The notes beneath the pieces were generated by a model. It was not told where the DNA came from. It saw only the letters and a list, made by a program, of their open reading frames with translations, and made no database searches. A DNA stretch of 64,000 nt from the NCBI RefSeq assembly GCF_030866805.1, contig NZ_CP133019.1, positions 992,001 through 1,056,000 of the forward strand. The letters are read 5' to 3'. The stretch comes from Microbacterium terrisoli (GTDB taxonomy: Bacteria; Actinomycetota; Actinomycetes; Actinomycetales; Microbacteriaceae). Of the stretch, positions 16,096-54,853 are shown one piece after another (position 1 is the stretch's first letter; each line of letters starts with the position of its first letter). The translations under genes were made by a program, and so were the position numbers.

Positions 16096-17962
<1,867 letters not shown>

Positions 17963-18714: not shown

Positions 18715-18737
18715 GCGTTCCTTTCGGAGTTGTCGGG

Positions 18738-21573: not shown

Positions 21574-21669
21574 CAATCGTCGAGTTCTCAGCGAGACGGT
21601 AGGTGCGCCTAAGTATGCTGTCTCGGGGTTAGCGGTCGACTGGGCCGCCTCATCCGGAAAGGTGTCGCG

Positions 21670-23703
21670 GTGGCCTGGTTCGCGCAGTGGGGGACGTTCC
21701 TGGCGACCGGGCTCATCGTCTTCGGCCCTGGCCTCGTGGCCGCGTGGGCCGTTGGCCTTCGGCGCCTGGCCGCGTGGGCATTCGCCCCGGTCGGTTCGGT
21801 TGCGATGATCTCGGCGGTGGCCGTGATCTATGGCTTCGCCCGGATACCGTGGACGCTGATGACAGCGGCGGCAGGGCTCGCCGGCATCGCGCTCATCCTC
21901 GTTGTCTGCCGGCTTGCGCTGCGCGTGCGCCGTAACGACGTGACGCTCACCGACGTGCGCTGGCCTGTGGCAGTGGGCCTGCTCGTCGGCGCTGTGCTCA
22001 TCACGGTGCGCGTCACGATCTATGTCGGCGACCCCTCGAACATCTCGCAGACAAGCGACGCCGTGTTTCATCTGGGGGCAGTGCGGGCGATCATCGAGCA
22101 GCAGACAGCAACATCGTTCGGGCTTGGGGGGCTGATCGATCCGACGGCCATCGGCGCGTTCTACCCTGGGGCCTGGCATGAGGCCGACTCGCTCATCACG
22201 CTTCTCGTCGGACTGGTAGGCGGAACCGGGACGCTCGCGGGTGACATCGCGGTCGTCACCAACGTGCTGGCGCTGGTTGTGGCTGCGCTCGTGTGGCCAC
22301 TGGGGATCGTCTGGCTGACACAGGTTGCCACGGGCCGTCGTTGGGCGGCCGCTGCGGCCGGCGTGATGTCGGCGGGGTTCGTGATCTTTCCGCTGGAGTT
22401 GCTGCAGTACGGCGTTCTGTATCCGTACTTTCTCGCGGTGGCCCTGCTGCCCGCATCCATCGCTGCGGTCGTCGCCTTGTCACGGCACACCTGGTCGCGA
22501 CCCTCGGCGCTCGGCGACGGGGATCGATCCGTCTCTGGAAGGATCACAGCGGTGATTCTCGCGTTCGGCATGGGCACCGTCGCCGTGGGCAATGCGCAGC
22601 CATCGGGGCTGCTCGGGCTGTGGCTCGCCGTGTGGCTTTGTGGACTCGGGGGCACCGTCGTGCTGTGGCCGAAGGCACGCTCCGGCCGTTGGTGGGCGAC
22701 CGCAGGGTTGGTCGCTGCCGGCGTCGTCCTTGCCGCGGCGTGGGCGAGCATGGGTGGGCCGCGGGCGGGGGTGTGGGATCCGAGGGCCAGTGGTGCCCAC
22801 TCGGCGCTGACGATCTTGTCGGGCGGCTTCGTGGACTCGCCGCCCGCGTGGTGGATCAGCGTGCTACTTGCCGTCGGGCTTGTGGCCGTGCTGCGGCGGT
22901 CCGGGACGCGCTGGCTCGCGCTGGGATGGTTCGCATTGGCGTTCCTGGCGTTCGTGGCATACGCCGTGCACACCGAATGGGTGCGGGCGTTCTTGGTCGG
23001 GCCGTGGTACAGCGACCCCTACCGGCTCGCGGCGCTGGTGCCTCTCATGATGATTCCCGTCGCGGCCGCCGGCGTCGTCTGGATCGTCGATCTGTGCGCT
23101 GCGCTGGTCATACGGCGACGAGTTGGGCGAGCCGACGCAGCCCGCACGGGCATCGGTGCTGCCGCCCTGGCGGTCGTCGCTGTCATCGCGATCGGCGTCG
23201 TGATCGCCGAGCCGCTGGTGATGCGCTACGAGGTCAACTCGGGCATGTACCAGGACCAATCGACGTATGCGGTCGGTGAGGACTCGTGGCTGCACCCGGA
23301 CGAACGTGCGCTGCTCGGGCGCCTGTCGCACGACGTGCCGGCGGGTGCGACAGTGCTGGACAACCCGTCCACCGGAGGCGCATGGGGATACTTCTTCTCG
23401 GGAACAGACACCTATCCGGCCAAGTGGCAGGTGCCGACCACGCCCGCGTATGCGCTGCTCAAGATGCGATTGCACAGCGTTGCCACAGATCCGCAGGTGT
23501 GCAGCGCGCTGCGCACCCTCAAAGCCGACTACGTACTCGACTTCGGCCCTGGTGGCGCGGTGGAGCCGGGGTTGCCCGGACCCGCGAAGAGCATGCCTGG
23601 CTTCACGGACCTTGAGGGTGTGCCCGGATTCCAGCTGATCGACCACCAGGGCGACGCGAAGCTCTGGCGGATCACCGAATGTGCGGGGAACTCCGTCGGA
23701 TAG
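21670..23703 (+). CDS. DUF6541-type polytopic membrane protein, copy 2
   Basis: This 677-residue paralogue of the preceding gene shares the whole architecture and many local identities: WAVGLRRLAAWAFAPVGS near the start, QTSDAVFHLGAVRAI, TSFGLGGLIDP, FYPGAWHEADS, the VGPWYSDPYRLAAL segment, and the C-terminal PAKWQVPTTPAY and YVLDFGPGG. A tandem duplication with divergence is evident. The GTG at 21670 is preceded by GGAAAGG, so unlike copy 1 it has a leader and a ribosome-binding site. TATGCT at 21614-21619 is a plausible -10. Function is unknown, with a GT-C-like role possible. Confidence 0.8.
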   Translation: MAWFAQWGTFLATGLIVFGPGLVAAWAVGLRRLAAWAFAPVGSVAMISAVAVIYGFARIPWTLMTAAAGLAGIALILVVCRLALRVRRNDVTLTDVRWPVAVGLLVGAVLITVRVTIYVGDPSNISQTSDAVFHLGAVRAIIEQQTATSFGLGGLIDPTAIGAFYPGAWHEADSLITLLVGLVGGTGTLAGDIAVVTNVLALVVAALVWPLGIVWLTQVATGRRWAAAAAGVMSAGFVIFPLELLQYGVLYPYFLAVALLPASIAAVVALSRHTWSRPSALGDGDRSVSGRITAVILAFGMGTVAVGNAQPSGLLGLWLAVWLCGLGGTVVLWPKARSGRWWATAGLVAAGVVLAAAWASMGGPRAGVWDPRASGAHSALTILSGGFVDSPPAWWISVLLAVGLVAVLRRSGTRWLALGWFALAFLAFVAYAVHTEWVRAFLVGPWYSDPYRLAALVPLMMIPVAAAGVVWIVDLCAALVIRRRVGRADAARTGIGAAALAVVAVIAIGVVIAEPLVMRYEVNSGMYQDQSTYAVGEDSWLHPDERALLGRLSHDVPAGATVLDNPSTGGAWGYFFSGTDTYPAKWQVPTTPAYALLKMRLHSVATDPQVCSALRTLKADYVLDFGPGGAVEPGLPGPAKSMPGFTDLEGVPGFQLIDHQGDAKLWRITECAGNSVG

Positions 23704-39687: not shown

Positions 39688-39693
39688 TAAGCT
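39688..39693 (+). promoter_or_regulatory. -10 box before the UDP-sugar 2-epimerase gene
   Basis: TAAGCT followed by 8 bases and then the GTG at 39702; no Shine-Dalgarno sequence. Confidence 0.4.
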
Positions 39694-39701
39694 TGATGAT
39701 C

Positions 39702-40763
39702 GTGAAGATCGTCAGTGTCGTGGGCGCGCGCCCGCAGTTCGTCAAGCTCGCCCCGATCGACCAGGCCATGCGGGCCGCCGGGGTCGATCACGTCATCGTC
39801 CACACCGGGCAGCACTACGATCCGATGCTCTCGGACGTGTTCTTCGAGGATCTCGGCATCTCTGCCCCAGACGTGCACCTGGGCGTGGGCAGCGGAACGC
39901 ACGGGGTGCAGACAGGGGCCATGCTCGGTGCCCTTGACGGCGTGTTCGACGAGCATCGGCCGGACTGGGTGCTCGTCTACGGTGACACGAACTCGACGAT
40001 CGCCGCAGCGCTGAGCGCCGTGAAGATGCACTTGCGGGTCGCGCACCTCGAGGCCGGGCTGCGCAGCTTCAACCGCCGCATGCCCGAAGAGCACAACCGC
40101 GTGCTCACCGACCACGCGGCCGACCTTCTGCTGGCGCCCACGCAGGTCGCCGTCGACCACCTCATCGATGAGGGTCTCGCCGAACGCACGGTGCTCGTGG
40201 GGGATGTGATGACCGACGTGCTCTACACGGTGCGCGACGAGGTGGCAGGGCGTCCGTCGCCCCTGGTGGCCGAACTCGGCCTCACTCCGGGCGAGCATTA
40301 CGTGGCCACCATCCACCGCGCCGAGAACACGGATGAGCCGGACCGACTCGCAGAGGTGGCCGCGGGGTTGGGCGGGCTCGATCGTCCTGTCGTCCTTCTC
40401 GCGCACCCGCGTGTGGTCGCGCGCGCCGCGGCCCACGGCATCCCCCTCACCCAAGGTTCACTGATCGCGCATGCGCCGCTGGCCTACCCTGAGCTGATCG
40501 CCTCGGCACTGCACAGCGCCGGTGTGGTCACCGACTCGGGCGGCCTGCAGAAGGAGGCGTTCCTGCTGCGCGTTCCCTGCACGACCGTGCGCACTGAGAC
40601 CGAGTGGGTTGAGACCGTCGATCTCGGGTGGAACGTGTTGGCCGGCACCGCTGCCGAGATCGCCGCCGGTGTCACCCGCCCGCAGCCGTCGCCGACGGAT
40701 GCCGCGCCCTATGGCGACGGCCACGCCGCCGAGCGTGTGGTCGAGGTGCTCACGGCGAGCTGA
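39702..40763 (+). CDS. wecB: UDP-N-acetyl-hexosamine(uronate) 2-epimerase, non-hydrolysing (WecB/WbpI family)
   Basis: This 353-residue enzyme interconverts C2 epimers of UDP-HexNAc sugars. Family landmarks are VVGARPQFVKLAPI (about 4-17), HTGQHYDPML (about 35), VYGDTNST (about 90), HLEAGLRSFNRRMPEEHNR (about 112-130, catalytic acids), TIHRAENTD (H205) and TDSGGLQKEAFLL (about 277). The region TVRTETEWVET replaces the TTERPE-type end of classical WecB/MnaA; I recall TEW in WbpI-type enzymes acting on UDP-GlcNAc3NAcA, which fits the nearby WbpB/D/E-like genes. The start at GTG 39702 agrees with the -10 box; ATG 39696 is an alternative. Confidence 0.9.
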   Translation: MKIVSVVGARPQFVKLAPIDQAMRAAGVDHVIVHTGQHYDPMLSDVFFEDLGISAPDVHLGVGSGTHGVQTGAMLGALDGVFDEHRPDWVLVYGDTNSTIAAALSAVKMHLRVAHLEAGLRSFNRRMPEEHNRVLTDHAADLLLAPTQVAVDHLIDEGLAERTVLVGDVMTDVLYTVRDEVAGRPSPLVAELGLTPGEHYVATIHRAENTDEPDRLAEVAAGLGGLDRPVVLLAHPRVVARAAAHGIPLTQGSLIAHAPLAYPELIASALHSAGVVTDSGGLQKEAFLLRVPCTTVRTETEWVETVDLGWNVLAGTAAEIAAGVTRPQPSPTDAAPYGDGHAAERVVEVLTAS

Positions 40764-42170: not shown

Positions 42171-44081
42171 GTGCTGAAGGTCTCCGTCGTCATTCCGACG
42201 TATCGGCCCAAAGAAGGGCTCGATCGGCTCGTCGCCTCGATCGACGCGCAGACGCTTTCGACCGACGAGTTCGAGGTGATCTTCGTCGACGACGGATCGC
42301 CCGACAACACGTACGCACGTCTGCAGGAGGTCGCACGCACGCGGCCGCACGTGCGTGTCGAACGCATCGAGAACTCCGGCTGGCCGTCGCGGCCGCGCAA
42401 CATCGGCACCGACCTCGCGCGAGGCGAGTACGTCGCATTCATGGACCATGACGACGAGCTGTACCCTGATGCGCTGCGACGGGGCTATGAGTTCGCCGCA
42501 GCAAACTCGGCAGACGTGCTCTCGGGCAAAGAGGCGCGCACGCATGACGCGGCATGGGCCATCGATCTCTACCGCGAAGACCTCGGACAGGCGTTGGGGC
42601 TGACGCGCCAACATCCCATGATTCCGATGAACCCGCACAAGCTCTACAGACGCGCGTTCCTGATCGAGCACGACATCCGCTTTCCCGAAGGCGGGCGAGT
42701 CATGTGGGAAGACATCTTCTTCAACGTGAAGGTGATGCGTCACGCGCGGGTCATGTCGGTGCTGGCCTCGGTTCCCTATTACCACTGGTTCACGACGCGC
42801 GGCAGCGGCTCGACCGGCTTCCAGCGCTCGAACCCCGAGTTCTGGCAGTGGCTGCGGCGTGTGCTCGAGACGACGGAGACAGATCTCGCCGGTCCCGCGC
42901 TCGCGCAGCAGCACCGGCAGCTGATGGGACACCAGTACCGGTCGCGGATCATCGCCTCGTTCGATACGCGTTTCTCCGGCCGCGGCCAGGCTGAGCGCGA
43001 CCTGATCTATGACAGCTGCCGCCGACTGCAGCAGGATTTCGACCTGCGCCGCTTCGACGACGCGCTGAACGCCTCGGGGCGCATGCGCGCGCATCTGCTG
43101 GCGGGAGATCGTCGCGTGCTGCTCGAGCAATTGCCGCAGGCCGATCCGACCATCCCCGGTTGGGGCACCACGACGTCGCTGCGCTGGGACGGAGATACGC
43201 TTCGCGTCGAAGCCGACGTCGAGTGGTCCAGCCCGCATGGGCGCCGCCACGACTTCGAACACAGCCCCGCGGGGCGCGTCCTCAAGCGCCTGCCTGAGGT
43301 GCTGGCCGAGGCGATCCCGGCAGACCTGCGTGACGTGACCGAGGAGATCGCGTCGGCGACCGTGGAATTGGGGATGCGCTCGCGCGAGTCGCGTGTGGTG
43401 TGGATGCTGTCGTCGCGGGCACATGTGCAGGCGCCGGATGCTGATTCCGGGCGCGTCGGGCTGACAGCGACACTCTCGGGCGAATTGGATGTCACGTCCG
43501 CGATCTTCGGCTCTGCTGTGGGAGCAGATACCTGGGATCTGAACGTGCGCACGAACCTTGGCGGCACGATCACTCAGACACAGCTGCGCGCCCCGCACAC
43601 CGCAACCGTCTCGCTGCATGACGGACACGTGCGGCTCGCCTATGTGAACAAGGATGGATTCGTCACAGCCCACGCCGACGACAGCGCCGAAGCGGTGCGA
43701 CGCCTGAGGCCGCAGACCGCACGGGTCGAGGGCGGCGCTCTCATCGTGACTCTGGAGGGCGTCCATACCGGCTCCGGCGAAATCCCGGTCTCTGTGGCGA
43801 CGGTGGGCGGCGACGGCAAGCCGAAGGGGGCGCTGCCGGGCGTGCTCGCGATGGAGGGACAGTCGGTCGTGCTGCGGTTCGCGGCGGCGCCGGCCCAGGT
43901 GCGCCTGCGCATCGGCGACCGAACGCCCGACGGTGCGGCATGGTGGGACGTGCGCACAGGTTCGGACGGCGCGTCGTTGCAGCGGGGCCGCCCGGTCTCA
44001 CAGAAGCCGGCGACATCGACCGTGCAGCGCGTGCGCAGGGCGGGCGGACGAGTGCTGCGCCGCCTCGGCCTGCGCAGATGA
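42171..44081 (+). CDS. GT2 glycosyltransferase with C-terminal beta domains (TarP/TarS-like)
   Basis: This 636-residue protein has an N-terminal GT-A domain with VSVVIPTYRPKEGLDRLV (about 4-21), VIFVDDGSPDNTYARL (about 37-52), ENSGWPSRPRNIGTDLARGEYVAFMDHDDELYPDAL (split; metal-binding MDHDDE at about 93) and VMWEDIFF (about 181). Residues about 330-600 form beta-rich modules. The arrangement and the SGWPSRPRN and WED motifs recall TarP/TarS-type wall teichoic acid glycosyltransferases. It may decorate the polyol-phosphate chain made by the downstream genes. A Lys/Arg-rich tail ends the protein. Confidence 0.85.
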   Translation: MLKVSVVIPTYRPKEGLDRLVASIDAQTLSTDEFEVIFVDDGSPDNTYARLQEVARTRPHVRVERIENSGWPSRPRNIGTDLARGEYVAFMDHDDELYPDALRRGYEFAAANSADVLSGKEARTHDAAWAIDLYREDLGQALGLTRQHPMIPMNPHKLYRRAFLIEHDIRFPEGGRVMWEDIFFNVKVMRHARVMSVLASVPYYHWFTTRGSGSTGFQRSNPEFWQWLRRVLETTETDLAGPALAQQHRQLMGHQYRSRIIASFDTRFSGRGQAERDLIYDSCRRLQQDFDLRRFDDALNASGRMRAHLLAGDRRVLLEQLPQADPTIPGWGTTTSLRWDGDTLRVEADVEWSSPHGRRHDFEHSPAGRVLKRLPEVLAEAIPADLRDVTEEIASATVELGMRSRESRVVWMLSSRAHVQAPDADSGRVGLTATLSGELDVTSAIFGSAVGADTWDLNVRTNLGGTITQTQLRAPHTATVSLHDGHVRLAYVNKDGFVTAHADDSAEAVRRLRPQTARVEGGALIVTLEGVHTGSGEIPVSVATVGGDGKPKGALPGVLAMEGQSVVLRFAAAPAQVRLRIGDRTPDGAAWWDVRTGSDGASLQRGRPVSQKPATSTVQRVRRAGGRVLRRLGLRR

Positions 44082-44183
44082 CCTCGGTATGACCTCGGTG
44101 CGGTGCGGTGCCATGAGAGCAGTCTCATGGCGGTGGGAACCCGACGCTGTGCGTGGGCTGAGGGGCTGCTGAAACCGACGCCG

Positions 44184-44189
44184 TAGGAT
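44184..44189 (+). promoter_or_regulatory. -10 box of a probable leaderless licD-methyltransferase transcript
   Basis: TAGGAT followed by 7 bases and the GTG at 44197. It overlaps an in-frame ATG at 44188, arguing that the GTG is the real start. Confidence 0.45.
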
Positions 44190-44196
44190 GGGGCGA

Positions 44197-45768
44197 GTGA
44201 AAACCGGTCGCCGAGTTCTGCAACTCACGGAGTCGGAGTTGCAGGGAGCGACTGCCGTCGACGTCCGATTCGATGGTCATCGGGTGTGGTCGACGGCGAT
44301 CCCCGACGCCAAGAACGGCGTTATCACCCTCGCGTGGCCAGAACCGGTTCGCAGGCGCTTGACCGGTCGGTCTGAGGTGTCCGTGGTCGAAACCGCGACC
44401 GGGCGTGCGCTCGCCTCGAAGAGCGCTCAATTCGACCTCTCGCGCAGGCGGCTGCAGATCACCGACAAGCGCGGGCAGTGGCTCGCGATGACCAAGTGGG
44501 ACCGTCTGGGCCCCGTGCTCGGCGGCAGCAGCGACGACGTCGCCTCACGGCTCGTCGCCTCCGGCGCCCGGCTGGCCGACGACATGAAGGCGTGGGGCTA
44601 CCCGCTGTACCTCGTCGGCGGCATGCTGCTGGGCATGGTCCGCGGCGGCAAGCTGCTGCCGCACGATGACGACATCGACTTCGCATTCCTTTCCGATGCG
44701 ACCGACCCGGCAGAGCTCGGGCGGATCAGCTACGAGATGGAGCGGCGCCTGAGCGCAGCGGGCTACACGGTGGTCCGCCACAGCCTCGCCCACCTCGAGC
44801 TCGTGTTCTTCGACGCGCAGGGTCAGGTCGACCACTACATCGACATCTTCACGGGTTTCTTCCACAAAGGCCTCTACTGTCAGCCGTTCGCTCTGCGCGG
44901 ATCCGAGGTCACGCGCGAAGACCTGGTGCCCACCAAAGACATCGTCATCGGCGGTGTGCCGCTGCCCGCTCCCGCCAACCCCGAGGCATGGCTGGCCTAC
45001 GCGTACGGCGAGAGCTGGCGCATCCCCGACCCGACGTTCAAGTTCGTCGTCGATCCCGGCACCAAGCATCGTTTCGACAGCTGGTTCGGCGTGTTCAACC
45101 GTGGCCGGTTCTTCTGGGAGAAGCACTGGCAGGGCGAAGAGCGTTCACTGGGATCGACTGCCGGAGCCCGTGCTGTCGCGCGGATGAAGAAGAAGCTCCC
45201 CGCAGGCAGCCACGTGCTCGATCTCGGCTGCGGGGACGGCCGATGGGGCCAAGAGCTTGCCGCCGCCGGACACACGGTGGTCGGTGTCGATTTCAGCTTC
45301 GAAGCGCTGCGGGTCGCGACATCCAATGACGAGCACGGAGTGCGCTACGAGCGGGTCAACGCGAACGACCGGGCCGCACTGCTCGCGCTCGGCACGGATC
45401 TGCTGGCAAGCGGCGCGCGCTGGCACGTGTTGATCAGCGACGTGCTGCACGGCCTCACGTTCGCCAACCGCATGAATGTCTACCTGCTGCTCAAACTTCT
45501 GCTCACCCCCGGTATGCGCGCGGTGGTCAGCTTCGACTCGCACCGCAGCAGCCGATACGAGCGCGCCGACCCGCGGACGTGGGACTACGGGCTGGACAAG
45601 TTCGACGAAGAGCTCGCCGAGAGCGGCCTGGCCGCCCAACGCGTTCGCACACGCCTGCGCAAGTCCGAAGTCGGCTGGCGCCGATATGTGACGGCGGAGA
45701 TCGTCGCCGTGCCCTCGCGAAGCATCGGACAAGCGTGGACGACCGAGAGACCGGAGAATGTGTCATGA
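44197..45768 (+). CDS. LicD phosphotransferase - SAM methyltransferase fusion
   Basis: Three parts are visible in 523 residues. Residues about 1-85 are a beta-rich N-terminal module. About 120-300 is a LicD/fukutin-type nucleotidyltransferase-fold domain: LYLVGGMLLGMVRGGKLLPHDDDIDFA split at 138-150 and 151-163, with Asp157-159 and Asp161 as metal ligands, then HLELVFFDA and DHYIDIFTGFF. About 325-510 is a class I methyltransferase with VLDLGCGDGRW (about 340-350), VVGVDFS (D365) and HVLISDVLHGL. LicD-family enzymes transfer phosphocholine or polyol phosphates from CDP donors; the methyltransferase may cap or modify the same polymer. The small coiled-coil gene overlaps its stop. Confidence 0.85.
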   Translation: MKTGRRVLQLTESELQGATAVDVRFDGHRVWSTAIPDAKNGVITLAWPEPVRRRLTGRSEVSVVETATGRALASKSAQFDLSRRRLQITDKRGQWLAMTKWDRLGPVLGGSSDDVASRLVASGARLADDMKAWGYPLYLVGGMLLGMVRGGKLLPHDDDIDFAFLSDATDPAELGRISYEMERRLSAAGYTVVRHSLAHLELVFFDAQGQVDHYIDIFTGFFHKGLYCQPFALRGSEVTREDLVPTKDIVIGGVPLPAPANPEAWLAYAYGESWRIPDPTFKFVVDPGTKHRFDSWFGVFNRGRFFWEKHWQGEERSLGSTAGARAVARMKKKLPAGSHVLDLGCGDGRWGQELAAAGHTVVGVDFSFEALRVATSNDEHGVRYERVNANDRAALLALGTDLLASGARWHVLISDVLHGLTFANRMNVYLLLKLLLTPGMRAVVSFDSHRSSRYERADPRTWDYGLDKFDEELAESGLAAQRVRTRLRKSEVGWRRYVTAEIVAVPSRSIGQAWTTERPENVS

Positions 45769-46010
45769 GAAAACTTCTGCGCTCGCTTGCCGAGAAGATC
45801 GCTCCCACCGCGTACGGGCGGCTCAAGCAGCTCTCGGTGCTCGACGACGATGCCACGACGAGTGAGATCCTGCTCGGCTATCAGGAGCAGGTCAAAGATC
45901 TGCAGGCGCAGCTGGATGAGGTGCGCCGTGAGCACCGCCATGTCGTCGAACTGTACGACCTCATGTTCGAGCGGCTGCAGAACGAGGCACCTTTGCGCGA
46001 GCGCGTCTGA
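45765..46010 (+). CDS. Small coiled-coil protein coupled to LicD-methyltransferase
   Basis: This 81-residue protein has a basic start (MRKLLRSLAEKIAPTAYGRLKQL), an acidic middle (SVLDDDATTSE) and a heptad-like helix from about 38 to 78 (YQEQVKDLQAQLDEVRREH, VVELYDLMFERLQNE). No enzyme motif is visible. It overlaps the upstream gene by 4 bases (ATGA) and has GGAG upstream, so it is genuinely translated. It resembles, from memory only, small coiled-coil proteins that recur in actinobacterial surface-glycan clusters (DUF6752-like). A scaffold or regulator of the glycan enzymes is a reasonable guess and no more. Confidence 0.7.
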   Translation: MRKLLRSLAEKIAPTAYGRLKQLSVLDDDATTSEILLGYQEQVKDLQAQLDEVRREHRHVVELYDLMFERLQNEAPLRERV

Positions 46011-46025
46011 CGCGCCCCGATCGCA

Positions 46026-47432
46026 CTAAGCGGTGACGCCGCCGCGACGCATGGCGGCGACTTTGACCGTCACTACCTGACCGGTCAGCTCGGACGCGGC
46101 GACATTCAGGGTGACCCGAGCGACGTCGTCCGCGGCAAGCAGGCTGCCCGCGGGCTCATCGCCGAACGCGCTCGTGCGCATCGGGGTGTGCGTGCGCTGC
46201 GGATTGATGCAATTGATGCGCACGCCCGATCCTGCCCACTCCTCTGACAGCGCTTGGGTGAGGTTCACGACCCCGGCCTTGGTTGCAGAATAGACGCCGT
46301 AGCCGGCGCGCCCGCGTGTGTACGAACTCGAGGTGAAAAGCAGCATCTGCCCACGGCTGCGTTCGAGGTGTCTGAAGGCCGCGCGGGCGATCACGACCGG
46401 TGCGATGAGGTTCGTATCGATGGTCTCCAGCAGGCTGTCCAAGGGCGCCTCGGCGAGCCTCTGCACGCGCAGCAGGCCGGCCGTGACCACAACGATGTCG
46501 ATGCGGCCGTCGGCGGCGGCGACGGCGTCGAGTGCCGCGGTGATCTGGTCGGTGCTGCGCACATCGGTGCCGGTCGTGGATCGGCTGAATTCATGCACCC
46601 GCGCCCCGGCACCCTCGGCGAGGTTCACCACGCTCTGGCCGATTCCGTAGCTGCCGCCGAAGACGACGACAGTCTTGTCCCGTAGGTCGGGCAGTGTCTC
46701 AGGCCGGGTGTCGAGCGCGAGCGAGGCCGACTGCAGCTGGAAGATCTTGTCGGCGATGTCGATGTCGATCGGCTCGGTGACCTTCATGTTCTCGGCCGTG
46801 CCTTCGACCACGAAGATCGGCACCTCGGGAAGGTAGTGGAACACGACACCGCAGTCGTCGGTCGCGCGGAACTGCGGGTCCTGGCGGGCGAGCTCGTAGG
46901 CGCGGCGGATCGTGCCCAGGCGGAAGGCTTGCGGTGTCTGCCCGCGGCGCAGCCGGGCACGGTCGGGGATGTCGTCGATGTGCCCGGTCTCGCCGAGCCT
47001 GATGATGGTGTCGGCGGAGGGGATCGCCGTGTCCACCGCGTCGTACCTCTCCAGCGCGTCCACGCAGTCGCGGATGATGCGGTCGTCGATGAACGGACGT
47101 ACAGCGTCGTGCAGCAGGACCTTCGTGTCATCGCCGTCCAGTGCCGCCAGCGCCAGCTGCGTCGTGTCGCTGCGCGTCTCGCCGCCGGGCAGGATGCGAC
47201 TCAGCTTCGAGAAGCGGTCCCCCGCGAGCAGGTGATCGAGTTCGCTGATCGAGGCGGCGTTCATCATCACGACGATCTCGTCGATGAGGTCGCTCGCCTG
47301 CAGGGATTCCAGCGTGTGCTCGACGATGGCTTTTCCCGCGATCTTGATGAGCTGTTTCGGGATGCCGAGTCCGACACGCACCCCGATTCCACCAGCGAGG
47401 ACAACGGCAACCGTGCGGGTCGGTGCAGACAT
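46026..47432 (-). CDS. TarI-type cytidylyltransferase - SDR fusion (Bcs1-like CDP-ribitol synthase candidate)
   Basis: This 468-residue bifunctional protein has an N-terminal cytidylyltransferase (about 1-235) with VVLAGGIGVRVGLGIPKQLIKI split at 10-22 and 23-31, VLLHDAVRPFIDD (about 98) and [10 protein letters not shown] with TDDCGVV (about 160-190). The C-terminal short SDR (about 245-468) has VVVFGGSYGIGQS and LLFTSSSYTRG, then YGVYSATKAG with the Tyr-Lys pair. Haemophilus Bcs1 and related fusions reduce ribulose-5-phosphate and form CDP-ribitol; this layout matches. The product would feed the TagF/TarL-type and LicD-type neighbours. It follows the transferase gene through a strong hairpin at 47445-47475, with GAAGGAA next to the ATG. 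Confidence 0.88.
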   Translation of the reverse strand: MSAPTRTVAVVLAGGIGVRVGLGIPKQLIKIAGKAIVEHTLESLQASDLIDEIVVMMNAASISELDHLLAGDRFSKLSRILPGGETRSDTTQLALAALDGDDTKVLLHDAVRPFIDDRIIRDCVDALERYDAVDTAIPSADTIIRLGETGHIDDIPDRARLRRGQTPQAFRLGTIRRAYELARQDPQFRATDDCGVVFHYLPEVPIFVVEGTAENMKVTEPIDIDIADKIFQLQSASLALDTRPETLPDLRDKTVVVFGGSYGIGQSVVNLAEGAGARVHEFSRSTTGTDVRSTDQITAALDAVAAADGRIDIVVVTAGLLRVQRLAEAPLDSLLETIDTNLIAPVVIARAAFRHLERSRGQMLLFTSSSYTRGRAGYGVYSATKAGVVNLTQALSEEWAGSGVRINCINPQRTHTPMRTSAFGDEPAGSLLAADDVARVTLNVAASELTGQVVTVKVAAMRRGGVTA

Positions 47433-47444
47433 CGGGATTCCTTC

Positions 47445-47475
47445 AGGATGGTGGAGCGGGGCGCTCCACCATCCT
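47445..47475 (-). other. Strong intercistronic hairpin before the CDP-ribitol synthase gene
   Basis: A perfect 14-bp stem (47445-47458 with 47462-47475) has a 3-base loop between the minus-strand transferase (stop 47487) and the TarI-SDR gene (start 47432). The TarI-SDR ribosome-binding site GAAGGAA lies immediately 3' of the stem. There is no U-tract, so it may attenuate, block processing or set unequal expression of the two genes. Confidence 0.7.
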
Positions 47476-47486
47476 ACGGGGGCGGC

Positions 47487-49883
47487 TCAGTCGCGCCCGG
47501 TGCCGGACCGGGGGCGAGGGCGGACCGCGGCGACCGCAAGCTGCGCGATCGCATCGGCGCACGGCGTCGTCGACCCGTCCATCGGAGGGGTGCCGACCCA
47601 GTGCTGGGCGAACGCCACGGACCGCTCATGGGTGCCCTCGCCGGCTTCGATCGCGGCGATCAGCGCGTCGAGGTCACGGAGGATCGGCCCTGGCAGATCC
47701 CGGCGGTAGTCGAGGTAGAAGTCGCGTGATGCGATGTACGCATCGAGATCCGGTGCGAGGAAATAGCAGGGGATGCTGAGCACGGCCGCTTCGTACAGCG
47801 CCGACGAATAGTCGGTGATGAACAGGTCCGCGACCTGCAGCAGTTCCTGTGTGGTGAATCCCGGTGCGGTGTCGACCTCCGGCCCGAAGTCGATGGGCAT
47901 CAGCGGATGCACCTTCACGACCAGATGAATGTCCGCCTGATCCAGCGCGCGCGCCAGAGCCGTGGCATCCACCGTCACCGTGCCGTCGAGCCGGAACGTC
48001 GGAGCGAACACTGCCACGCGCGCGCCGCGCAGGTGTGGGTGTATGTCGAAGATGCGCTCACGGGTCTGCTCGCGCCGCTGAGGGTCCAGCAGTCTGTCCA
48101 CCCGGGGGAGGGGAGCGGCGATGACGTTGTCGATCGGGGTGCCCAGCGCTTCGGCGAACGGTGCGCGGGCGCTCTCACCGCTGGCGAGGACGAGGTCATA
48201 GCCCTGGTGCATGCGCATCGCCTTCGCCAGACGCCTATCGCGTCCCTCATCGTGGTCGAGGATGCTGAGTCCGAATTTCTTGAACGCGCCCAGAGCATGC
48301 CAGATCTGGATGACCGTCAGTTCTGGGCCGTGTCGCAGCAGGCTGGCCACCATCGCATAGGTGTCGATGACGAGAACGCGGGACGTCGCGACGTGGTAGA
48401 GCTGCGTGAGCATGTGGAACGCGTAGCCGACCTTCGCAAGTGCCCCGGGAGGGACCATCCTGACCAGCGTGACGACCTCCACCGACGGGTCCGCGCGCGT
48501 GATGGCGGCTTTCAGATCGACGAAGTCGTCCGGCACGGACTCGTGCTCGCGGCTGATCATGACCACCTTGCGTCGGCGCGGCAGCAGGCGCAGCGGAGCG
48601 TACGCGACGTTCAGACCGATGCGGGCGGCGTGGGCCACGATCAGGCGCAGCCCCATGGCATTCTCGACACGCGTCGGGGCCGGCGCGCTGCCACCCGGAG
48701 CCGCCGCTTCGGGGCGACCGGTCGAGCGCGGGTTGAGGATCAGCTCGCGCGTGATCCGCTCGGTCGAGTGGCCGTCGCACGCACCCATGAAACGCTGCAG
48801 GAACGCTTCTTGGTCGGCTCCATGGTGTGCATGTCGGATCGCGTCGGCAAGATCGGCGCCGTCGGTGACCAGGGGACCGGTGACGTAGTCGGCGAACGGG
48901 TAGTAGAAGTCGCGGTCTGCCGTGTACTGCTCGAGGTCGGGGCAGAAGAACACGATGGGGCGGCGCAGCAGCGCGTACTCGAAGATCGTCGAGGAGTAGT
49001 CGGTGATCAGCACGTCGGCGGCCATCAGCAGACGCGTGATCTCGCGATCGGCGGTGACGTCGATGACGCCCTCGGTTCCGGGACGGGCCACAGCCAGCGG
49101 CGAGACGAACGGATGCATCTTCACCATCACGGCCCAGCCATCGCCGAGTTCGCCCGCGAGTGCCTTCCAATCGATCGCGTCATAGTCGAACGTCGCGGTC
49201 AACTGGCCGTTGCCGCGGAAGGTCGGCGCATACAGCGCGATCCGAGTGTCGTCGCCGATGCCGTAGCGTGCGCGCACCTCGCGATTGGCCTGGGCGACGG
49301 CCTGTTCGTCGAAGAAGATGTCGGTGCGCGGCACGCCGAGCGCCTTCACACGTGATTCGGGGATGCCGAACGCTTCGGCGTAGTTGGGACGGATGGCCTC
49401 GCTGCTGACGGTCGCGTCGGTGTAGTTGCGATGGATGATCGAGCCGGGGGTCGGGCCGCCCGGCAGGCCTTCGCGGCTGTACCCGACGCGCTTGAAGGCT
49501 CCGGCCGCGTGCCACACCTGCAGCAGCCGGGTCTCGGGGCGGATGCGGAACGGGTAGATCAGGGGGTAGAAGTCGTCGAGCACGATGGTCTGTGCTGTGG
49601 CGGTGTACCAGGGCAGGCGCAGGATGTCGCGGATTGGCCTCCGCGCCCGCATGCTGCGCTTGAACAGGCCGATGATCTCGGCATCCGGGCTCTGCCGCGC
49701 GATCTCTTCGCGAAGGAACCGGAAGTTCCCGGTGTAGTCGGCGCGGGAATCCGAGAGGAAGACGACGCGGTCGGGCCGCACGCGCGTGAGCTTGGACACG
49801 ACCTGGTAGGCGATCGAATACGGGCCGAAACGCCATCTCTGAAGGATTCGGCTGCGGCGCAGCACACTTCGGAGGAAGCTCAT
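47487..49883 (-). CDS. Double-domain CDP-glycerol/ribitol phosphotransferase (TagF/TarL-type)
   Basis: This 798-residue protein carries two complete copies of the teichoic-acid polymerase catalytic domain (PF04464-type). Copy 1 has WHAAGAFKR (H125), YAPTFR (218-223), KMHP (255-258) and TDYSS (294-298). Copy 2 has WHALGAFKK (H529), FAPTFR (626-631), KVHP (657-660) and TDYSS (690-694). A Pro/Ala linker at about 385-405 joins them. All family landmarks are intact in both, suggesting two active sites, perhaps a primase plus polymerase or two acceptor specificities. The CDP donor is probably supplied by the TarI-SDR protein encoded next. TAGGAT about 55 bases upstream is a plausible -10. Confidence 0.9.
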   Translation of the reverse strand: MSFLRSVLRRSRILQRWRFGPYSIAYQVVSKLTRVRPDRVVFLSDSRADYTGNFRFLREEIARQSPDAEIIGLFKRSMRARRPIRDILRLPWYTATAQTIVLDDFYPLIYPFRIRPETRLLQVWHAAGAFKRVGYSREGLPGGPTPGSIIHRNYTDATVSSEAIRPNYAEAFGIPESRVKALGVPRTDIFFDEQAVAQANREVRARYGIGDDTRIALYAPTFRGNGQLTATFDYDAIDWKALAGELGDGWAVMVKMHPFVSPLAVARPGTEGVIDVTADREITRLLMAADVLITDYSSTIFEYALLRRPIVFFCPDLEQYTADRDFYYPFADYVTGPLVTDGADLADAIRHAHHGADQEAFLQRFMGACDGHSTERITRELILNPRSTGRPEAAAPGGSAPAPTRVENAMGLRLIVAHAARIGLNVAYAPLRLLPRRRKVVMISREHESVPDDFVDLKAAITRADPSVEVVTLVRMVPPGALAKVGYAFHMLTQLYHVATSRVLVIDTYAMVASLLRHGPELTVIQIWHALGAFKKFGLSILDHDEGRDRRLAKAMRMHQGYDLVLASGESARAPFAEALGTPIDNVIAAPLPRVDRLLDPQRREQTRERIFDIHPHLRGARVAVFAPTFRLDGTVTVDATALARALDQADIHLVVKVHPLMPIDFGPEVDTAPGFTTQELLQVADLFITDYSSALYEAAVLSIPCYFLAPDLDAYIASRDFYLDYRRDLPGPILRDLDALIAAIEAGEGTHERSVAFAQHWVGTPPMDGSTTPCADAIAQLAVAAVRPRPRSGTGRD

Positions 49884-49996
49884 CTCGGTTGTCGCTCCTG
49901 TCTCGTCGTGGCACGTGGGTCGCCCTCCGTGATCCTAACGGTGGCGCTGATGGCGCCCTCCCGGCGCGCTCACGGACGAGGCACAGCCGCTCCCGG

Positions 49997-50002
49997 TATC
50001 CT
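49997..50002 (+). promoter_or_regulatory. -10 box of a probable leaderless DUF4012 transcript
   Basis: TATCCT followed by 6 bases and the GTG at 50009; no Shine-Dalgarno sequence. Confidence 0.5.
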
Positions 50003-50008
50003 CTTCTG

Positions 50009-51832
50009 GTGCCCAGACCCGCCACCTCCGGACGCTACCGCGTGGACCGCATCGGTTCACACGAGGCGCGCGTTCGGCGACGGCGCTGGCCGTGGATCAC
50101 ACCTCTGGTGATCGTCGGCGGCATCGGCATCATCGCTGGTGTGTTCGGGGTCCAGGCGATCACGGTGCAGCATGATCTGCTCACAGCCAAGTCCGAGCTG
50201 TCATCGCTGGGTCATTACGTCAAGAGCGGTGACTCCGCAAAGATCGACGCCGTCGGAGACAACGTCCTCAAGCTGACGCGTGACGCGAACTCGACCGTTC
50301 GCGGCCCGCTCTGGCAGATGGCCTCGGGCATCCCTCTCGTCGGTCAGAACGTCGATGCCGTGCGTCGGGCAACCGAGGCCACCAGCATCCTCGCGGAAGG
50401 CGCGCTGCCTGCCGGGGTGAAGCTGCTCAGCTCGCTGCGCATCGACAAGATGTCGGTCAGCGGCGGTGGCGTCGACCTGGAACCGATCGAGAAGGCCGCC
50501 ACGTCGCTGCCCGAGATCAACGCGGCATTCGCGAGCGCGAAGACGAAGCTCGACGGGGTGGACCGCGCCTCGCTGCTGCCGTTCGTCGACAGTGCGATCG
50601 GCTCACTGTTCGATGTCATGGATCAGGCCGGGCCGGTCTTGAAAGACGTGCAGCACTACCTGCCCACGCTGCTGAAGGTCGCCGGCGCCGATGGCCCTCG
50701 CACCTACATGCTGATCTTCCAGAACAATGCGGAATCCCGCGCCACCGGGGGCCTGCCTGCGGCGACAGCGATCGTGAACGTCGACAACGGCCACCTCAAG
50801 CTGCAGGAGCAGACCTCGACGTTCACGTTCCCACGCGACCGCCAGGTGATCTTCCCGCCGGAGCAGACCCAGTCGATCTACGAAGCCGACACGTTCAAAG
50901 GGTTCGGCAACTTCAGCCGCACCCCGAACTTCCCGACCACCGGTGAGGCGTTCGCGGCGCTGTGGCACAACACGACCGGCGGCGAGCTCGACGGCGTGAT
51001 CTCGCTGGATCCGGTCGTGCTCTCGCACATGCTCGAAGTCACCGGCCCGATCAAGACCGCCGACGGGCGCAAACTGACCAGCGACAATGTGGTCGAAGCG
51101 CTGCTGTATGACGCGTACATCCGCTACAAGGGCAATACGAACCAGGACGCCTTCTTCAGCGACGTCGCCGCCCGGGTGTTCCTCAAGCTGTCGTCGGGTG
51201 ACTGGGACATCACGAAGATGCTCGACCAGCTGGGCGCCTCGGTCAGTGAGCATCGGCTGTACGCGTGGTTCCCACGCGAAGCGGAGCAGAACATGGCCGT
51301 CGAGATGAAGATGGACGGCACCATGACCGTCGACAACAAGAAGGCCACAGAGGTCGGCATCTACATCAACGACGCGGCCTACAGCAAGCTCGAGTTCTTC
51401 ATGAAGACGTCGATGAACGTCACGTGCGACGTCGCGAAGCGCACCGTGACCACGTCGCTGACGATCGCCAACAGCGTGCCGATGACCGGCTTGACCAGTT
51501 ATCAGCTGGGCATCCGCAACAAGCGCTACCAGATTCCGCGCGAGGACTTCGTCCAGGACATCATGTTCTCCGCCCCGCCGGGAGCCGAGATCACCAAGAT
51601 GGACCCCGAACAGGGCGACGCGTGGGACGGGCGGCGCAGCGGTGTCGAGAACGGACACGAGGCGCAGGTCGTGCGCATCTTCGTGCCGCACGAGCAGACC
51701 CGCACGGTGTCGTTCACGGTGAAGCTGCCCAAGGGCCAGCTCGGCCCGCTGCTGGCGCGCACGACGCCGACGGTGACCACCACGCCGGTCTCGATCGCGC
51801 CGACGTGCGCCCCGCTGTTCACCGCACCCTGA
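50009..51832 (+). CDS. DUF4012 membrane-anchored protein
   Basis: This 607-residue protein has one transmembrane helix (about 28-50) after a basic N-terminus and a large extracytoplasmic part. DUF4012 features include MLIFQNNAESRATGGLPAATAIV (split; about 232-254), FSRTPNFPTTGEAFAALWH (about 304) and DGVISLDPVVLSHMLEVTGPI (about 328). A beta-rich C-terminal domain with PRED, GAEI and FTVKLP strands follows. The family occurs in exopolysaccharide loci of Gram-positive bacteria and has no known reaction. The start at GTG 50009 matches the -10 box exactly. The gene diverges from the teichoic-acid genes and converges on the polymerase-like genes. Confidence 0.85.
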   Translation: MPRPATSGRYRVDRIGSHEARVRRRRWPWITPLVIVGGIGIIAGVFGVQAITVQHDLLTAKSELSSLGHYVKSGDSAKIDAVGDNVLKLTRDANSTVRGPLWQMASGIPLVGQNVDAVRRATEATSILAEGALPAGVKLLSSLRIDKMSVSGGGVDLEPIEKAATSLPEINAAFASAKTKLDGVDRASLLPFVDSAIGSLFDVMDQAGPVLKDVQHYLPTLLKVAGADGPRTYMLIFQNNAESRATGGLPAATAIVNVDNGHLKLQEQTSTFTFPRDRQVIFPPEQTQSIYEADTFKGFGNFSRTPNFPTTGEAFAALWHNTTGGELDGVISLDPVVLSHMLEVTGPIKTADGRKLTSDNVVEALLYDAYIRYKGNTNQDAFFSDVAARVFLKLSSGDWDITKMLDQLGASVSEHRLYAWFPREAEQNMAVEMKMDGTMTVDNKKATEVGIYINDAAYSKLEFFMKTSMNVTCDVAKRTVTTSLTIANSVPMTGLTSYQLGIRNKRYQIPREDFVQDIMFSAPPGAEITKMDPEQGDAWDGRRSGVENGHEAQVVRIFVPHEQTRTVSFTVKLPKGQLGPLLARTTPTVTTTPVSIAPTCAPLFTAP

Positions 51833-51857
51833 CCTCACCCTGACCGCACCCTGACCA
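51825..51857. repeat. 3 x 11-bp tandem repeat at the DUF4012 stop codon
   Basis: CACCCTGACC recurs at 51825, 51836 and 51847, period 11. The DUF4012 stop codon (51830-51832) is inside the first unit. Confidence 0.75.
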
Positions 51858-51873
51858 CCGCCCGAGACCGCCG

Positions 51874-53193
51874 TCACTCGTCGTCGGCGTTGCCCTCGGC
51901 GATGTCGGGCAGCTGCGCATCGTCGGCGGCCACGGCATCCATCCGCTCCCGCCACGATCGCGACTGACCGGCGCGCACGACGCACACCACCAGCACGAGC
52001 CAGCCTGCGCCCGAGAGGGTGAAGCTCTCGAACAGCGAGTTCGACAGCAGCGCCACCAGCACCAGCGGCGTCCAGGCGTAGACCGTGGCGCGGCGCTCGC
52101 CGGCGACCAGCCAGGAGCGGATCAGCGCGATGCCGGCCATCCCGACGAACAGGAACAGCCCGAGCCAGCCGACCTGCAGCACGAGGTCGGCATAGGCGTT
52201 CAGCGCCGTGGTGTAGTGCTTGCCCAGCGTGAAGTTGATCGAGACGAACGGGTACTGCTCCACCGGCCACGTGCCGAACCAGCCGAAACCCTCGACCGGG
52301 TGGTAGCGCACATAGACCGAGAGCACGCGCCACAGGTTCGCGCGGATCGAGAAGTCCGACCCGGCCGCGGCGATGATCTGGTGGCGCAGGATGTAGGCGG
52401 TGCCCAGCCCCACCGCCACGATGCCACCGAGCACCCACTGCACCGCGACACGGTCGTGCGCGTGCACGCGGCGCACGAGCGCGAGGGCGGCGGTGGCGAT
52501 GCCGACGGCGGCGGCGACCACCAGGACCGTGGGCGAACCGCTCAGGAACGCGAGCACTCCGCCCACGGCGACCGAGAACACGGCAAGGCCCGGTCGAATG
52601 GATGCCGTGCGCCACTCGACGACGAAGGTCACCAGAGCGATCACCGCGACGAATCCCAGCATGTTGCGGCTGCTGAACAGACCCTGGACGGGTCCCAGCT
52701 GCGCGATGTTGCCGGCGATGCCGAACCAATGCACGGGGGTGCGCATCAGGATGCCGATCACGATCTCGAGGGCCAGCGAGATCGACAGCAGCCAGCGCAT
52801 GACGTCGCCGAGCGCTCGCACCGTCTGCAGGGTGTCGCGCACATGGCCGATGACGATGGCGATCACCGCCACCCCGAGCAGGGCCACGCAGCCGGTGAGG
52901 GTGTCGGCGGGGGAGGTGCTCCAGATGAGGCTCAGCAGCAGCCAGCTCACGAAGACCAGCAGCGAGATGGGCACGAGCCGCAGGAACGAGAGCTCACGGC
53001 GTCGGGCCACCAGCATCCCGACCCCTACGACGCACAGCCCGCTGACGATCGTGATGAACGTCACGACTCCGGCGATCCACTGGATCGCGTACGAGGCGAA
53101 CACCGTCGCGAACGTGGCCAGCGTGAAGGCGCGCGCCATGCCTGCCGACCGCAGCAGCTCGGGCAGCCAGCGGGGCGGGTGGGGAGTGGTCAC
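51874..53193 (-). CDS. O-antigen ligase/polymerase-like membrane protein, copy 1
   Basis: This 439-residue polytopic protein has about 11 transmembrane helices. The large periplasmic loop contains LWRVLSVYVRYHPVEGFGWFG and HYTTALNAYADLVLQVGWLG, the (R)..P..G.G(W/F)G and H(N).YL/A signature of WaaL/Wzy-type enzymes that polymerise or transfer lipid-linked glycans. It starts at a GTG 5 bases after the stop of the preceding gene; an earlier in-frame GTG at 53235 would overlap it. It is co-transcribed with the second copy and may be the polymerase paired with the PglK-like flippase. Confidence 0.82.
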   Translation of the reverse strand: MTTPHPPRWLPELLRSAGMARAFTLATFATVFASYAIQWIAGVVTFITIVSGLCVVGVGMLVARRRELSFLRLVPISLLVFVSWLLLSLIWSTSPADTLTGCVALLGVAVIAIVIGHVRDTLQTVRALGDVMRWLLSISLALEIVIGILMRTPVHWFGIAGNIAQLGPVQGLFSSRNMLGFVAVIALVTFVVEWRTASIRPGLAVFSVAVGGVLAFLSGSPTVLVVAAAVGIATAALALVRRVHAHDRVAVQWVLGGIVAVGLGTAYILRHQIIAAAGSDFSIRANLWRVLSVYVRYHPVEGFGWFGTWPVEQYPFVSINFTLGKHYTTALNAYADLVLQVGWLGLFLFVGMAGIALIRSWLVAGERRATVYAWTPLVLVALLSNSLFESFTLSGAGWLVLVVCVVRAGQSRSWRERMDAVAADDAQLPDIAEGNADDE

Positions 53194-53197
53194 CGGC

Positions 53198-54613
53198 TCA
53201 GCGCCCTCTGCCTGCGGACTCGGCGATCGGCTCACCGCGCTCGATCGCCATCCGCTGCTCGATGGGACCGACCCCCACGTGAGGGGACTGCTTGATCTTG
53301 AAGGCGAGCATGGCCACGAACATCCAGCCCCACAGCAGCAGCGGTTCGGACTCGGCGAGGCCCTGCACGAGCAGCAGCGTGCCCACCAGGGTCGGCAGCA
53401 GCGTCAGCGGCGAGTAGGGGCGGTCGGCGCGCAGATCCCAGCGGGGGCGGTCGACGGCGAAGAACCACGCGCGCCACAGGAACGCCAGGTACAGCAGCGC
53501 CAGCAGCACGATGCCGACGATGCCCAGCTGCAGCCAGACGTCGAGCCACACGTTGTGTGCCTGCAGGACCGACTGGCCGTGGTCGATGATCCAGCCGTCG
53601 AAGTGCGGGTCGGCCTGGATCCACGGCGTCGCGAAGCCCCAGCCCACCACCGGGCGCTGGCTTGCGCGGTCGATCACGTCTTGCCAGATGCCTCCGCGAC
53701 CGGTGAGGGTCGATGAGCGGCCGAGCAGCGAGAAGATCGTGTCGCGCGCGAACCAGGCCGCGGCAAGGCCTGCCACCCCGATGACGGCGAACGCGATGTA
53801 GCGGGGGGTGCGCGCCCCGGGCGTGTCGGCGCGGCGCATGACCAGTGCCGCGATCAGGACGGCCGCAACGCCCACCGCGGCGAGGTAGATCGTGGCCGAG
53901 GAGGCGCGGTACATGAGATAGGCGGCCACGACGATCCACACGCCGAACATGATGCGCCGTGGGGCGCGGTCGGCGATGCGGATCGCGAAGACGATGATGG
54001 CCAGCAGACACACGGCCGCCAGCGGGTTGGCGCTGCCGAAGATGCCCTGGATGCGGCCGCCGTCGAACAGGTTGCCGCGGCACCAGAACACGATGGGGTC
54101 AAGACCGTGCTCGTCGGGGATTATGAAGCCCGGCAGCACCGGGCCGCGCACGAAGACGGCGACCACCAGTTCGAACAGGAGCGACAGGCCCAAGCACCAT
54201 TTCAGGGCCGACCCGATGGCGCGCACCACCTCACGCCACGTGAGGATGGCCGCCACGAACAGCCCCTGCAGCGTCGTGATGACCAGCAGCGCCCACGTCA
54301 GCGCCGACACGCCCAGCCATGCGGACCAGAACATCGACAGTCCCGCCCAAGCGAGGTAGGCCGCCACGTGCCACGGCAGGCGGCGCCAGTTCACCGGCGG
54401 GCGCACCAGGAACCAGAGGACGGCCGAGACCACCGCCGACAGCGCGGTGATGGCGACCGCGACATCATTGCCGAACGCGTTGACCCATGACACGCCCGAC
54501 AGGGCCAGGAACAGCACGAGGATGCACCAGCCGCGCAGCATGATGTGCCGCGTCTTCTCACGCACGGGCGCCGACGGCGCGGGCGCGGAAGGGTGCTTCG
54601 AGTTCACGGCCAT
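53198..54613 (-). CDS. O-antigen ligase/polymerase-like membrane protein, copy 2
   Basis: This 471-residue protein has about 11 transmembrane helices and the same family signature: the loop has IWQDVIDRASQRPVVGWGFATPW and VLQAHNVWLDVWLQLGIVG, with GRSSTLTGRGG before them (the substrate-binding Arg region). It lies directly upstream of the related copy, and the two are only moderately alike, so they may handle different glycans (polymerase and ligase, or two polymers). The ATG at 54613 is preferred; the longer frame upstream is low-complexity. TACCCT about 10 bases upstream of the ATG is a possible -10. Confidence 0.83.
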   Translation of the reverse strand: MAVNSKHPSAPAPSAPVREKTRHIMLRGWCILVLFLALSGVSWVNAFGNDVAVAITALSAVVSAVLWFLVRPPVNWRRLPWHVAAYLAWAGLSMFWSAWLGVSALTWALLVITTLQGLFVAAILTWREVVRAIGSALKWCLGLSLLFELVVAVFVRGPVLPGFIIPDEHGLDPIVFWCRGNLFDGGRIQGIFGSANPLAAVCLLAIIVFAIRIADRAPRRIMFGVWIVVAAYLMYRASSATIYLAAVGVAAVLIAALVMRRADTPGARTPRYIAFAVIGVAGLAAAWFARDTIFSLLGRSSTLTGRGGIWQDVIDRASQRPVVGWGFATPWIQADPHFDGWIIDHGQSVLQAHNVWLDVWLQLGIVGIVLLALLYLAFLWRAWFFAVDRPRWDLRADRPYSPLTLLPTLVGTLLLVQGLAESEPLLLWGWMFVAMLAFKIKQSPHVGVGPIEQRMAIERGEPIAESAGRGR

Positions 54614-54776
54614 GGTGGAATTCAGGGTATCGTGCCAGCCCTGTGAAATCGGGAGCCGGCCGGCCTGCCGAACGCAGGTGCATCTGCGGGGTCGTGACCA
54701 GTTCGTTATGGATCGCGACACACCCTCGGCGCGTCGCGAAGGTTCAACTGCGAGATGAGGCTTTAGTATCTGCGAC

Positions 54777-54807
54777 TTGACCATCTCGAATGACACCTGT
54801 GTAATTA
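54777..54807 (+). promoter_or_regulatory. whiB promoter with motif shared by the SH3b-protein gene
   Basis: TTGACC (54777-54782), a 17-base spacer and TGTAAT (54800-54805) make a near-consensus vegetative promoter. AATGACACCTGTGTAATTA (54789-54807) overlaps the -10 and matches 10676-10694 at 17 of 19 bases. The leader to whiB is about 40 bases and ends in TAGGAGAACGAG. Confidence 0.7.
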
Positions 54808-54853
54808 TCTGCAAGCACGCATCGCGTGGGGGGATAGCAGGTAGGAGAACGAG

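Follow-up and report, generated by a model that had tools for sequence, protein, structure and literature searches.

A LicD-methyltransferase fusion and its candidate donor enzymes at a putative ribitol-phosphate wall polymer locus of Microbacterium terrisoli

The use of CDP-ribitol as donor by the LicD/fukutin/FKRP type of enzyme is established for fukutin (FKTN) and FKRP in the passages of PMC4873967 on these proteins; they also state that many species have a pyrophosphorylase and a ribulose 5-phosphate reductase in one polypeptide, and the reference list of that paper gives Acs1 of Haemophilus influenzae as such a bifunctional enzyme. In pneumococcus, CDP-arabinitol synthesis involves a transferase of 240 residues, the product of abpA, formerly abp1 (PMC10118250, in part). 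In Listeria, rmlT is needed for rhamnose on ribitol-phosphate wall teichoic acids, and the motif of RmlT is DHD (PMC4441387, in part). According to part of PMC3482155, WbdD of Escherichia coli O9a combines a kinase, a methyltransferase and a coiled coil, and halts O-antigen growth before export by an ATP-binding cassette (ABC) transporter, coupling termination to export. We analysed a 64,000-nucleotide stretch of the Microbacterium terrisoli genome (G000, a single contig of 3.63 Mb; G000:C1:992001-1056000), hereafter the window, whose positions serve as coordinates below. It carries a fusion of LicD and methyltransferase domains (LicD-MT) in a block of five genes that a sequence-only reading had described as lying side by side: a family 2 glycosyltransferase (GT2), LicD-MT, a small protein, a CDP-ribitol synthase candidate (TarI-SDR) and a two-domain TagF/TarL-type protein. 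All five open reading frames were confirmed at their positions, with Pfam support for each except the small protein, and the block recurs in a congener, genome G012. The reading that suits LicD-MT best is that of a CDP-polyol phosphotransferase with a methyltransferase domain, a conserved small partner and a lineage-dependent donor enzyme; most of the locus seems to consist of known kinds of genes, and LicD-MT with its changing donor enzymes appears to be the new part.

LicD-MT (44188-45768, + strand, 526 aa) has an N-terminal beta-rich part (residues ~1-110), a LicD domain (~115-300) and a class I methyltransferase domain (~305-510). It shares a LicD domain with aligned Asp residues with FKRP, fukutin and the LicD family, and differs from them in being fused to the beta-rich part and the methyltransferase. 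In the whole protein, Pfam LicD scored 26.7 bits against a cut-off of 22.6, with a best stretch of just 28 residues, and Methyltransf_25 scored 37.3 bits; the excised LicD domain scored 30.8 bits, and 16/16 rows of its alignment matched Pfam LicD at E<=0.01. The HDDD.D motif was invariant in a 24-row alignment of LicD-MT, and one row (L018) of the separate 16-row LicD alignment has HDGD. FKRP was the sole sequence found when the LicD profile was searched against the PDB up to E 10, and its Asp residues were aligned. Fold searches with LicD-MT returned methyltransferases, so they bear on the methyltransferase part alone, and no kinase family was among its Pfam matches. Homologues of the fusion numbered 160 at E<=0.001 among 8000 candidates scored. 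We found no account of a LicD-methyltransferase fusion in the open-licence literature, which is not proof that the fusion is undescribed.

A genome scan yielded 78 loci, 20 with LicD-MT (L013-L032) and 58 counted as LicD-only (L033-L090); in one of the latter, L057, the match ran to residue 446. The small protein (45765-46010, + strand, 81 aa) has a homologue near LicD-MT in 11 of the 20 loci, and an ELYD motif is conserved among the homologues. Its ATG and the stop of LicD-MT share the bases ATGA; the same 4-base overlap occurs in L013, L014, L016 and L022, with other offsets in the remaining 6 of 10 relatives. No Pfam match was found in the 143-aa open frame containing it. The sequence-only reading had called it a coupled coiled-coil protein: the ATGA overlap bears out the coupling, and what stands of the coiled coil is an amphipathic, heptad-like pattern seen by hydrophobic moment alone, with no coiled-coil predictor and no null. 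L016:6464-14414 holds LicD-MT and the small protein twice over: the two pairs flank TarI-SDR, and the second is followed by a gene for the IspD-family enzyme IspDx described next; the layout is as if each pair had its own donor enzyme.

Besides TarI-SDR, the window encodes a second IspD-family cytidylyltransferase, IspDx (18016-18714, - strand; its longer open frame, 18016-19011, scored 166.5 bits with PF01128), which is a candidate donor enzyme for LicD-MT. One set of 79 genomes from the genus was searched for LicD-MT, IspDx and TarI-SDR in turn. LicD-MT was present in four (G000, G012, G044 and G068), and IspDx was present in the identical four at 67-100% identity and in 0 of the 75 others, a count that leaves out one row at 33%, the TarI-SDR paralogue of G000. 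TarI-SDR at >=70% identity was found in eight (G000, G007, G012, G044, G060, G063, G078 and G089; three rows at 33-39% not counted), that is, in 3 of the 4 genomes with LicD-MT and 5 of the 75 without it. Fisher's test for association with LicD-MT gave 6.7e-7 for IspDx and 0.0027 for TarI-SDR over the 79 genomes, and 1.3e-5 and 0.02 when G000, chosen for having LicD-MT, was taken out. The distance from LicD-MT to IspDx was ~0.35 kb in G068, ~2.2 kb in G044, ~25 kb in G000 and ~27 kb in G012; in G044 the two share a contig, with TarI-SDR on another. LicD-MT is thus probably independent of TarI-SDR.

Of the 20 LicD-MT loci, 16 have a nucleotidyltransferase near LicD-MT, and these enzymes are of four kinds. 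IspDx together with RedX, a reductase candidate, was found in eight (L013, L014, L015, L016, L019, L020, L022 and L027), TarI-SDR in L016, L018 and L024, a nucleotidyltransferase accompanied by a glycerol-1-phosphate-dehydrogenase-like gene in L025, L026 and L028, and a TagD-like enzyme in L030, L031 and L032. These neighbours suggest that CDP-polyols are the donors for this LicD group, supplied by a different enzyme from one lineage to another. The LicD-only loci, whose record titles are mostly proteobacterial, failed as a negative control, since they are themselves linked to a TagD-like cytidylyltransferase (38/58, 26 within 500 bases). Among the TagD-like proteins scored with TIGR01518, that of L043 passed (169.6 of 165.4), and those of L030, L031 and L065 were under the cut-off.

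RedX (18738-19520, - strand) belongs to the short NAD-dependent epimerase family (PF01370 34.2 vs 20.9 bits, residues 26-138). It adjoins IspDx on the same strand, and the pairing is kept in all eight loci with IspDx. No PDB match to RedX was found at E<=0.1, and its matches on plasmids carried no name or were generic oxidoreductases. The pneumococcal AbpA/AbpB pair, which serves CDP-arabinitol, likewise consists of an IspD-family and an epimerase-family protein; this likeness is one of description only. The IspDx rows formed a clade of their own (100/99) in a 45-row tree, which carries a warning of long branches meeting (the TarI stem, the IspDx stem and some distant TarI-like rows). All ten IspDx rows have PSTVQ(V/I)K at the place where a D-T pair stands in 16/16 rows of IspD from the methylerythritol phosphate (MEP) pathway and 11/11 TarI-SDR rows; from IspD structures, we take this pair to touch the substrate. 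The closest PDB entries of IspDx are MEP IspDs, and it fell under the NCBIfam ispD equivalog cut-off (169.7 vs 181.3 bits, no MEP row of the genus having been scored alongside). In 22/22 other genomes of the genus compared, the best IspD match was an open frame of at least 394 residues, which we tentatively read as a fused IspDF. In G000, a stand-alone ispF (PF02542; L128:6564-7564 within G000:C1:2556000-2570000) comes 26 bases after the gene that we take by eye to be carD, and both IspF and GcpE are present. A third IspD match at G000:C1:1314338 was set aside; it looks like GlmU in a frame read by eye.

TarI-SDR (46026-47432, - strand, 468 aa) combines an IspD match (161.3 bits) with an adh_short match (104.2 bits, residues 288-423). 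Its top PDB match was the ribitol-5-phosphate cytidylyltransferase 6xhp (E 9.9e-31), and it clustered with both TarI references (99/98) in the 45-row tree. It scored just under the cut-off of the NCBIfam ribitol-5-phosphate model (155.2 of 166); the ispD model scored it higher (171.5 of 181.3), also under its cut-off. Its domains and TarI grouping uphold the earlier proposal of a CDP-ribitol synthase candidate, in an architecture known from Acs1: like Acs1 of H. influenzae type a, it would join an IspD-like cytidylyltransferase and a reductase in one chain, a comparison made by description only and with a predicted activity. In G007, which has no LicD-MT, two extra TarI-like proteins (28-31% identity) lie near TagGH at L125:11608-16975, one of them adjoining a TagF-like match.

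The TagF/TarL-type phosphotransferase (47487-49883, - strand, 798 aa) has two Glyphos_transf (PF04464) stretches, 394.9 bits in all, and the WHA, K[VM]HP and TDYSS motifs in each half, as expected of the two-domain enzyme that had been claimed. Its first half (residues 36-384) is nearest to TarL (8va1, E 6.4e-80). TarL and TagF share PF04464 and the His motifs with it, whereas the window protein has two halves per chain, and WHA where TagF has WHG (PMC11666461, in part). Three more PF04464 matches, with WHG motifs, lie outside the window at G000:C1:1498605-1501198 and 134683-135807. TarI-SDR, grouping with TarI, and the two-domain TagF/TarL protein together fit poly(ribitol phosphate).

GT2 (42171-44081, + strand, 636 aa; Glycos_transf_2, PF00535, 92.8 bits) has a GT-A domain, a helical linker and C-terminal beta domains, and is a candidate wall teichoic acid rhamnosyltransferase. 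It had been labelled TarP/TarS-like, a label that we set aside: RmlT came closest over the full length in both the PDB sequence and the fold search. The top sequence match (phmmer) was 8bz4 (RmlT; E 5.5e-85, residues 2-508), and in the best Foldseek row, with a predicted model of mean pLDDT (predicted local distance difference test) 75.2 as query, Listeria monocytogenes RmlT aligned at template modelling (TM) scores of 0.80/0.84 over 607 columns with ~27% identity. TarS and TarP ranked behind it, with TM scores by query of 0.40-0.44. The TarS linker domain PF22181 was over cut-off in 3/3 scanned homologues and was not listed for GT2 itself at E<=0.001. The DHD motif is present, its D92 and D94 being kept in 10/10 aligned rows, as is D181 of a WED motif, which may be the counterpart of RmlT D198 (chain index of the aligned Asp 199). 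GT2 thus resembles RmlT (8bz4-8bz8, 9gzj and 9gzk) in full-length sequence and fold, in the DHD motif and in having rml genes nearby; it differs in its low identity and in coming from another phylum, and its rhamnose donor and activity are predictions. The nearby candidates for dTDP-rhamnose synthesis, all on the - strand, are an RmlC-RmlD fusion (14674-16149; PF00908 135.2 and PF04321 228.5 bits; under the NCBIfam cut-offs, rmlD 211.8 vs 224 and rmlC 82.8 vs 155.75), the dTDP-glucose dehydratase RmlB (16095-17093; PF16363 242.5 bits) and the glucose-1-phosphate thymidylyltransferase RmlA (17090-18133; PF00483 242.4 bits). Open frames at 18741-19988 and 14440-16116 on the + strand were dropped as antisense shadows of RedX and the RmlC-RmlD fusion.

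The exporter and the LCP protein expected elsewhere in the window were found at 8-15 kb, as ABC2_membrane, ABC_tran and LCP matches: a TagG-like ABC-2 permease (12832-13776, + strand; PF01061 49.7 bits), a TagH-like ABC ATPase (13497-14597, + strand; PF00005 73.9 bits; these are open-frame coordinates, and the real start is probably later) and an LCP-family glycopolymer transferase (8134-9546, + strand; PF03816 85.8 bits; TIGR00350 76.1 vs a cut-off of 62.3). The UDP-GlcNAc 2-epimerase WecB is also encoded (39693-40763, + strand; TIGR00236 255.5 bits vs a cut-off of 210.15). The ribitol-phosphate wall polymer suggested earlier thus has homology behind each of its parts, namely an Acs1-type synthase, a TarL-like phosphotransferase, a teichoic-acid glycosyltransferase, an exporter and an LCP protein, and the gene set probably fits such a polymer with rhamnose decoration.

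Considering these observations, we lean with modest confidence towards two linked but separable wall-teichoic-acid sub-modules, one for a ribitol-phosphate main chain and one for the addition of a second polyol. Every reaction, donor and acceptor in the following scheme, and the order of its steps, is what we infer beside the gene content, homology, motifs, predicted folds and co-occurrence that were observed. TarI-SDR would convert ribulose 5-phosphate and CTP to CDP-ribitol, from which the two-domain TagF/TarL protein would prime and polymerise ribitol phosphate. The RmlT-like GT2 would add rhamnose to the chain, with dTDP-rhamnose supplied by the rml genes of the window. IspDx and RedX would supply a second CDP-polyol. 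LicD-MT would use its LicD domain to transfer this second polyol phosphate onto the polymer and its methyltransferase domain to methylate the product, which could sit there as a cap or as a branch; the coupled small protein could act as scaffold or membrane tether for LicD-MT. The TagGH-like ABC transporter would export the polymer and the LCP protein would attach it. If this holds, the fusion with its switching donor enzyme would offer a direct means of searching for wall polymers modified with methylated polyol phosphates, and IspDx/RedX would be a concrete gene pair for a possible new CDP-polyol.

Several points weigh against this reading. In the window it is TarI-SDR that adjoins LicD-MT, with IspDx ~25 kb away; three of the 20 loci (L016, L018 and L024) likewise have TarI-SDR close to LicD-MT, the association of TarI-SDR with LicD-MT (Fisher 0.0027) is not nil, and the co-occurrence statistics ignore the relatedness of the genomes. 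None of the four kinds of nucleotidyltransferase lies near LicD-MT in L017, L021 and L023, where the scanned neighbours gave galactofuranosyltransferase-, pyruvyltransferase-, mutase- or TarS-linker-type matches or none and no nucleotidyltransferase; L029 ends 457 bases after the LicD-MT open frame, and the count of 16 in 20 has no clean negative control. The D-T pair is also missing in four distant TarI-like rows (two of L125, L127, one of L141). On the ribitol side, the TagF-like protein reached 422.5 of 1000 bits with the TarL equivalog NF041713, under the cut-off, and is TarL-like only; NCBIfam TagH models were the top matches of the ABC ATPase, yet it fell under their cut-offs; and TagA/WecG (PF03808) was not found in the whole genome G000 although WecB is present, which leaves the usual linkage unit unexplained. 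The main evidence against IspDx being a pure wall enzyme is that a dedicated MEP IspD was not found in G000, where the IspD query from G012 found only TarI-SDR and IspDx. With no other MEP IspD there, IspDx or TarI-SDR may serve the MEP pathway, so that IspDx may have a housekeeping role besides a wall role; whether a wall enzyme doubles in isoprenoid synthesis becomes testable in this organism.

The same absence, together with the presence of IspF and GcpE and the MEP IspDs as nearest PDB entries of IspDx, fits a single pathway in which IspDx is the MEP IspD of the organism and LicD-MT takes CDP-ribitol from TarI-SDR for a methylated ribitol-phosphate cap. LicD-MT and TarI-SDR lie close together in the window, in G012 and in L016, L018 and L024, and the LicD domain resembles FKRP, a user of CDP-ribitol (PMC4873967, in part). 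However, G012 holds a candidate fused IspDF, IspDx and TarI-SDR at once, G068 has LicD-MT and IspDx and no TarI-SDR at the cut-off, five genomes have TarI-SDR without LicD-MT, and the ten IspDx rows lack the D-T pair of the 16 MEP rows. We judge this tentative alternative to be rather unlikely. LicD-MT drawing on TarI-SDR, as the sequence-only reading had it, is accordingly left doubtful: TarI-SDR adjoins it here and in those three loci, but IspDx tracks it better.

A special case of the two-sub-module reading would make LicD-MT a terminator, LicD-MT and the small protein adding and methylating an end polyol phosphate and so setting chain length before ABC export. LicD-MT lies directly after TagGH-like ABC genes in L013, L014, L015, L020 and L022, and, as in WbdD, a phospho-modifying and a methyltransferase part are paired in one chain, with a heptad-like partner and an ABC-exported polymer. 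The resemblance is in parts and not one of membership: LicD takes the place of the kinase and would add polyol phosphate, not bare phosphate; the small protein has a gene of its own, and its 81 aa are far shorter than the WbdD C-terminal region (460-708; PMC3482155, in part). Moreover, the exporter ATPase shows only ATPase families in Pfam and no carbohydrate-binding module, and decoration along the chain fits equally well. We regard a terminator as unlikely. The fuller proposal that LicD-MT and the small protein are a Gram-positive WbdD counterpart, a terminator and length gauge adding a methylated second-polyol cap through a new IspDx/RedX CDP-polyol pathway, with IspDx also replacing a lost MEP IspD, is very unlikely.

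That the locus makes a capsule or other exported phosphopolymer, the window being a mixed polysaccharide island whose neighbours serve different polymers, is quite unlikely: it would suit the missing TagA and the MsbA-like transporter, two O-antigen-ligase-like proteins, DegT and GFO family genes and several other glycosyltransferases of the window, but the RmlT, TarI and TarL homologues with the TagGH-like exporter and LCP protein form a wall-teichoic-acid set, and the five-gene block is kept in G012.

Beside the TagF-like gene, window positions 49889-54814 hold a DUF4012 protein and the two O-antigen-ligase-like proteins, which have counterparts near the equivalent block in G012. Two adjoining DUF6541 proteins (499 and 469 bits) are encoded at 19621-23703.

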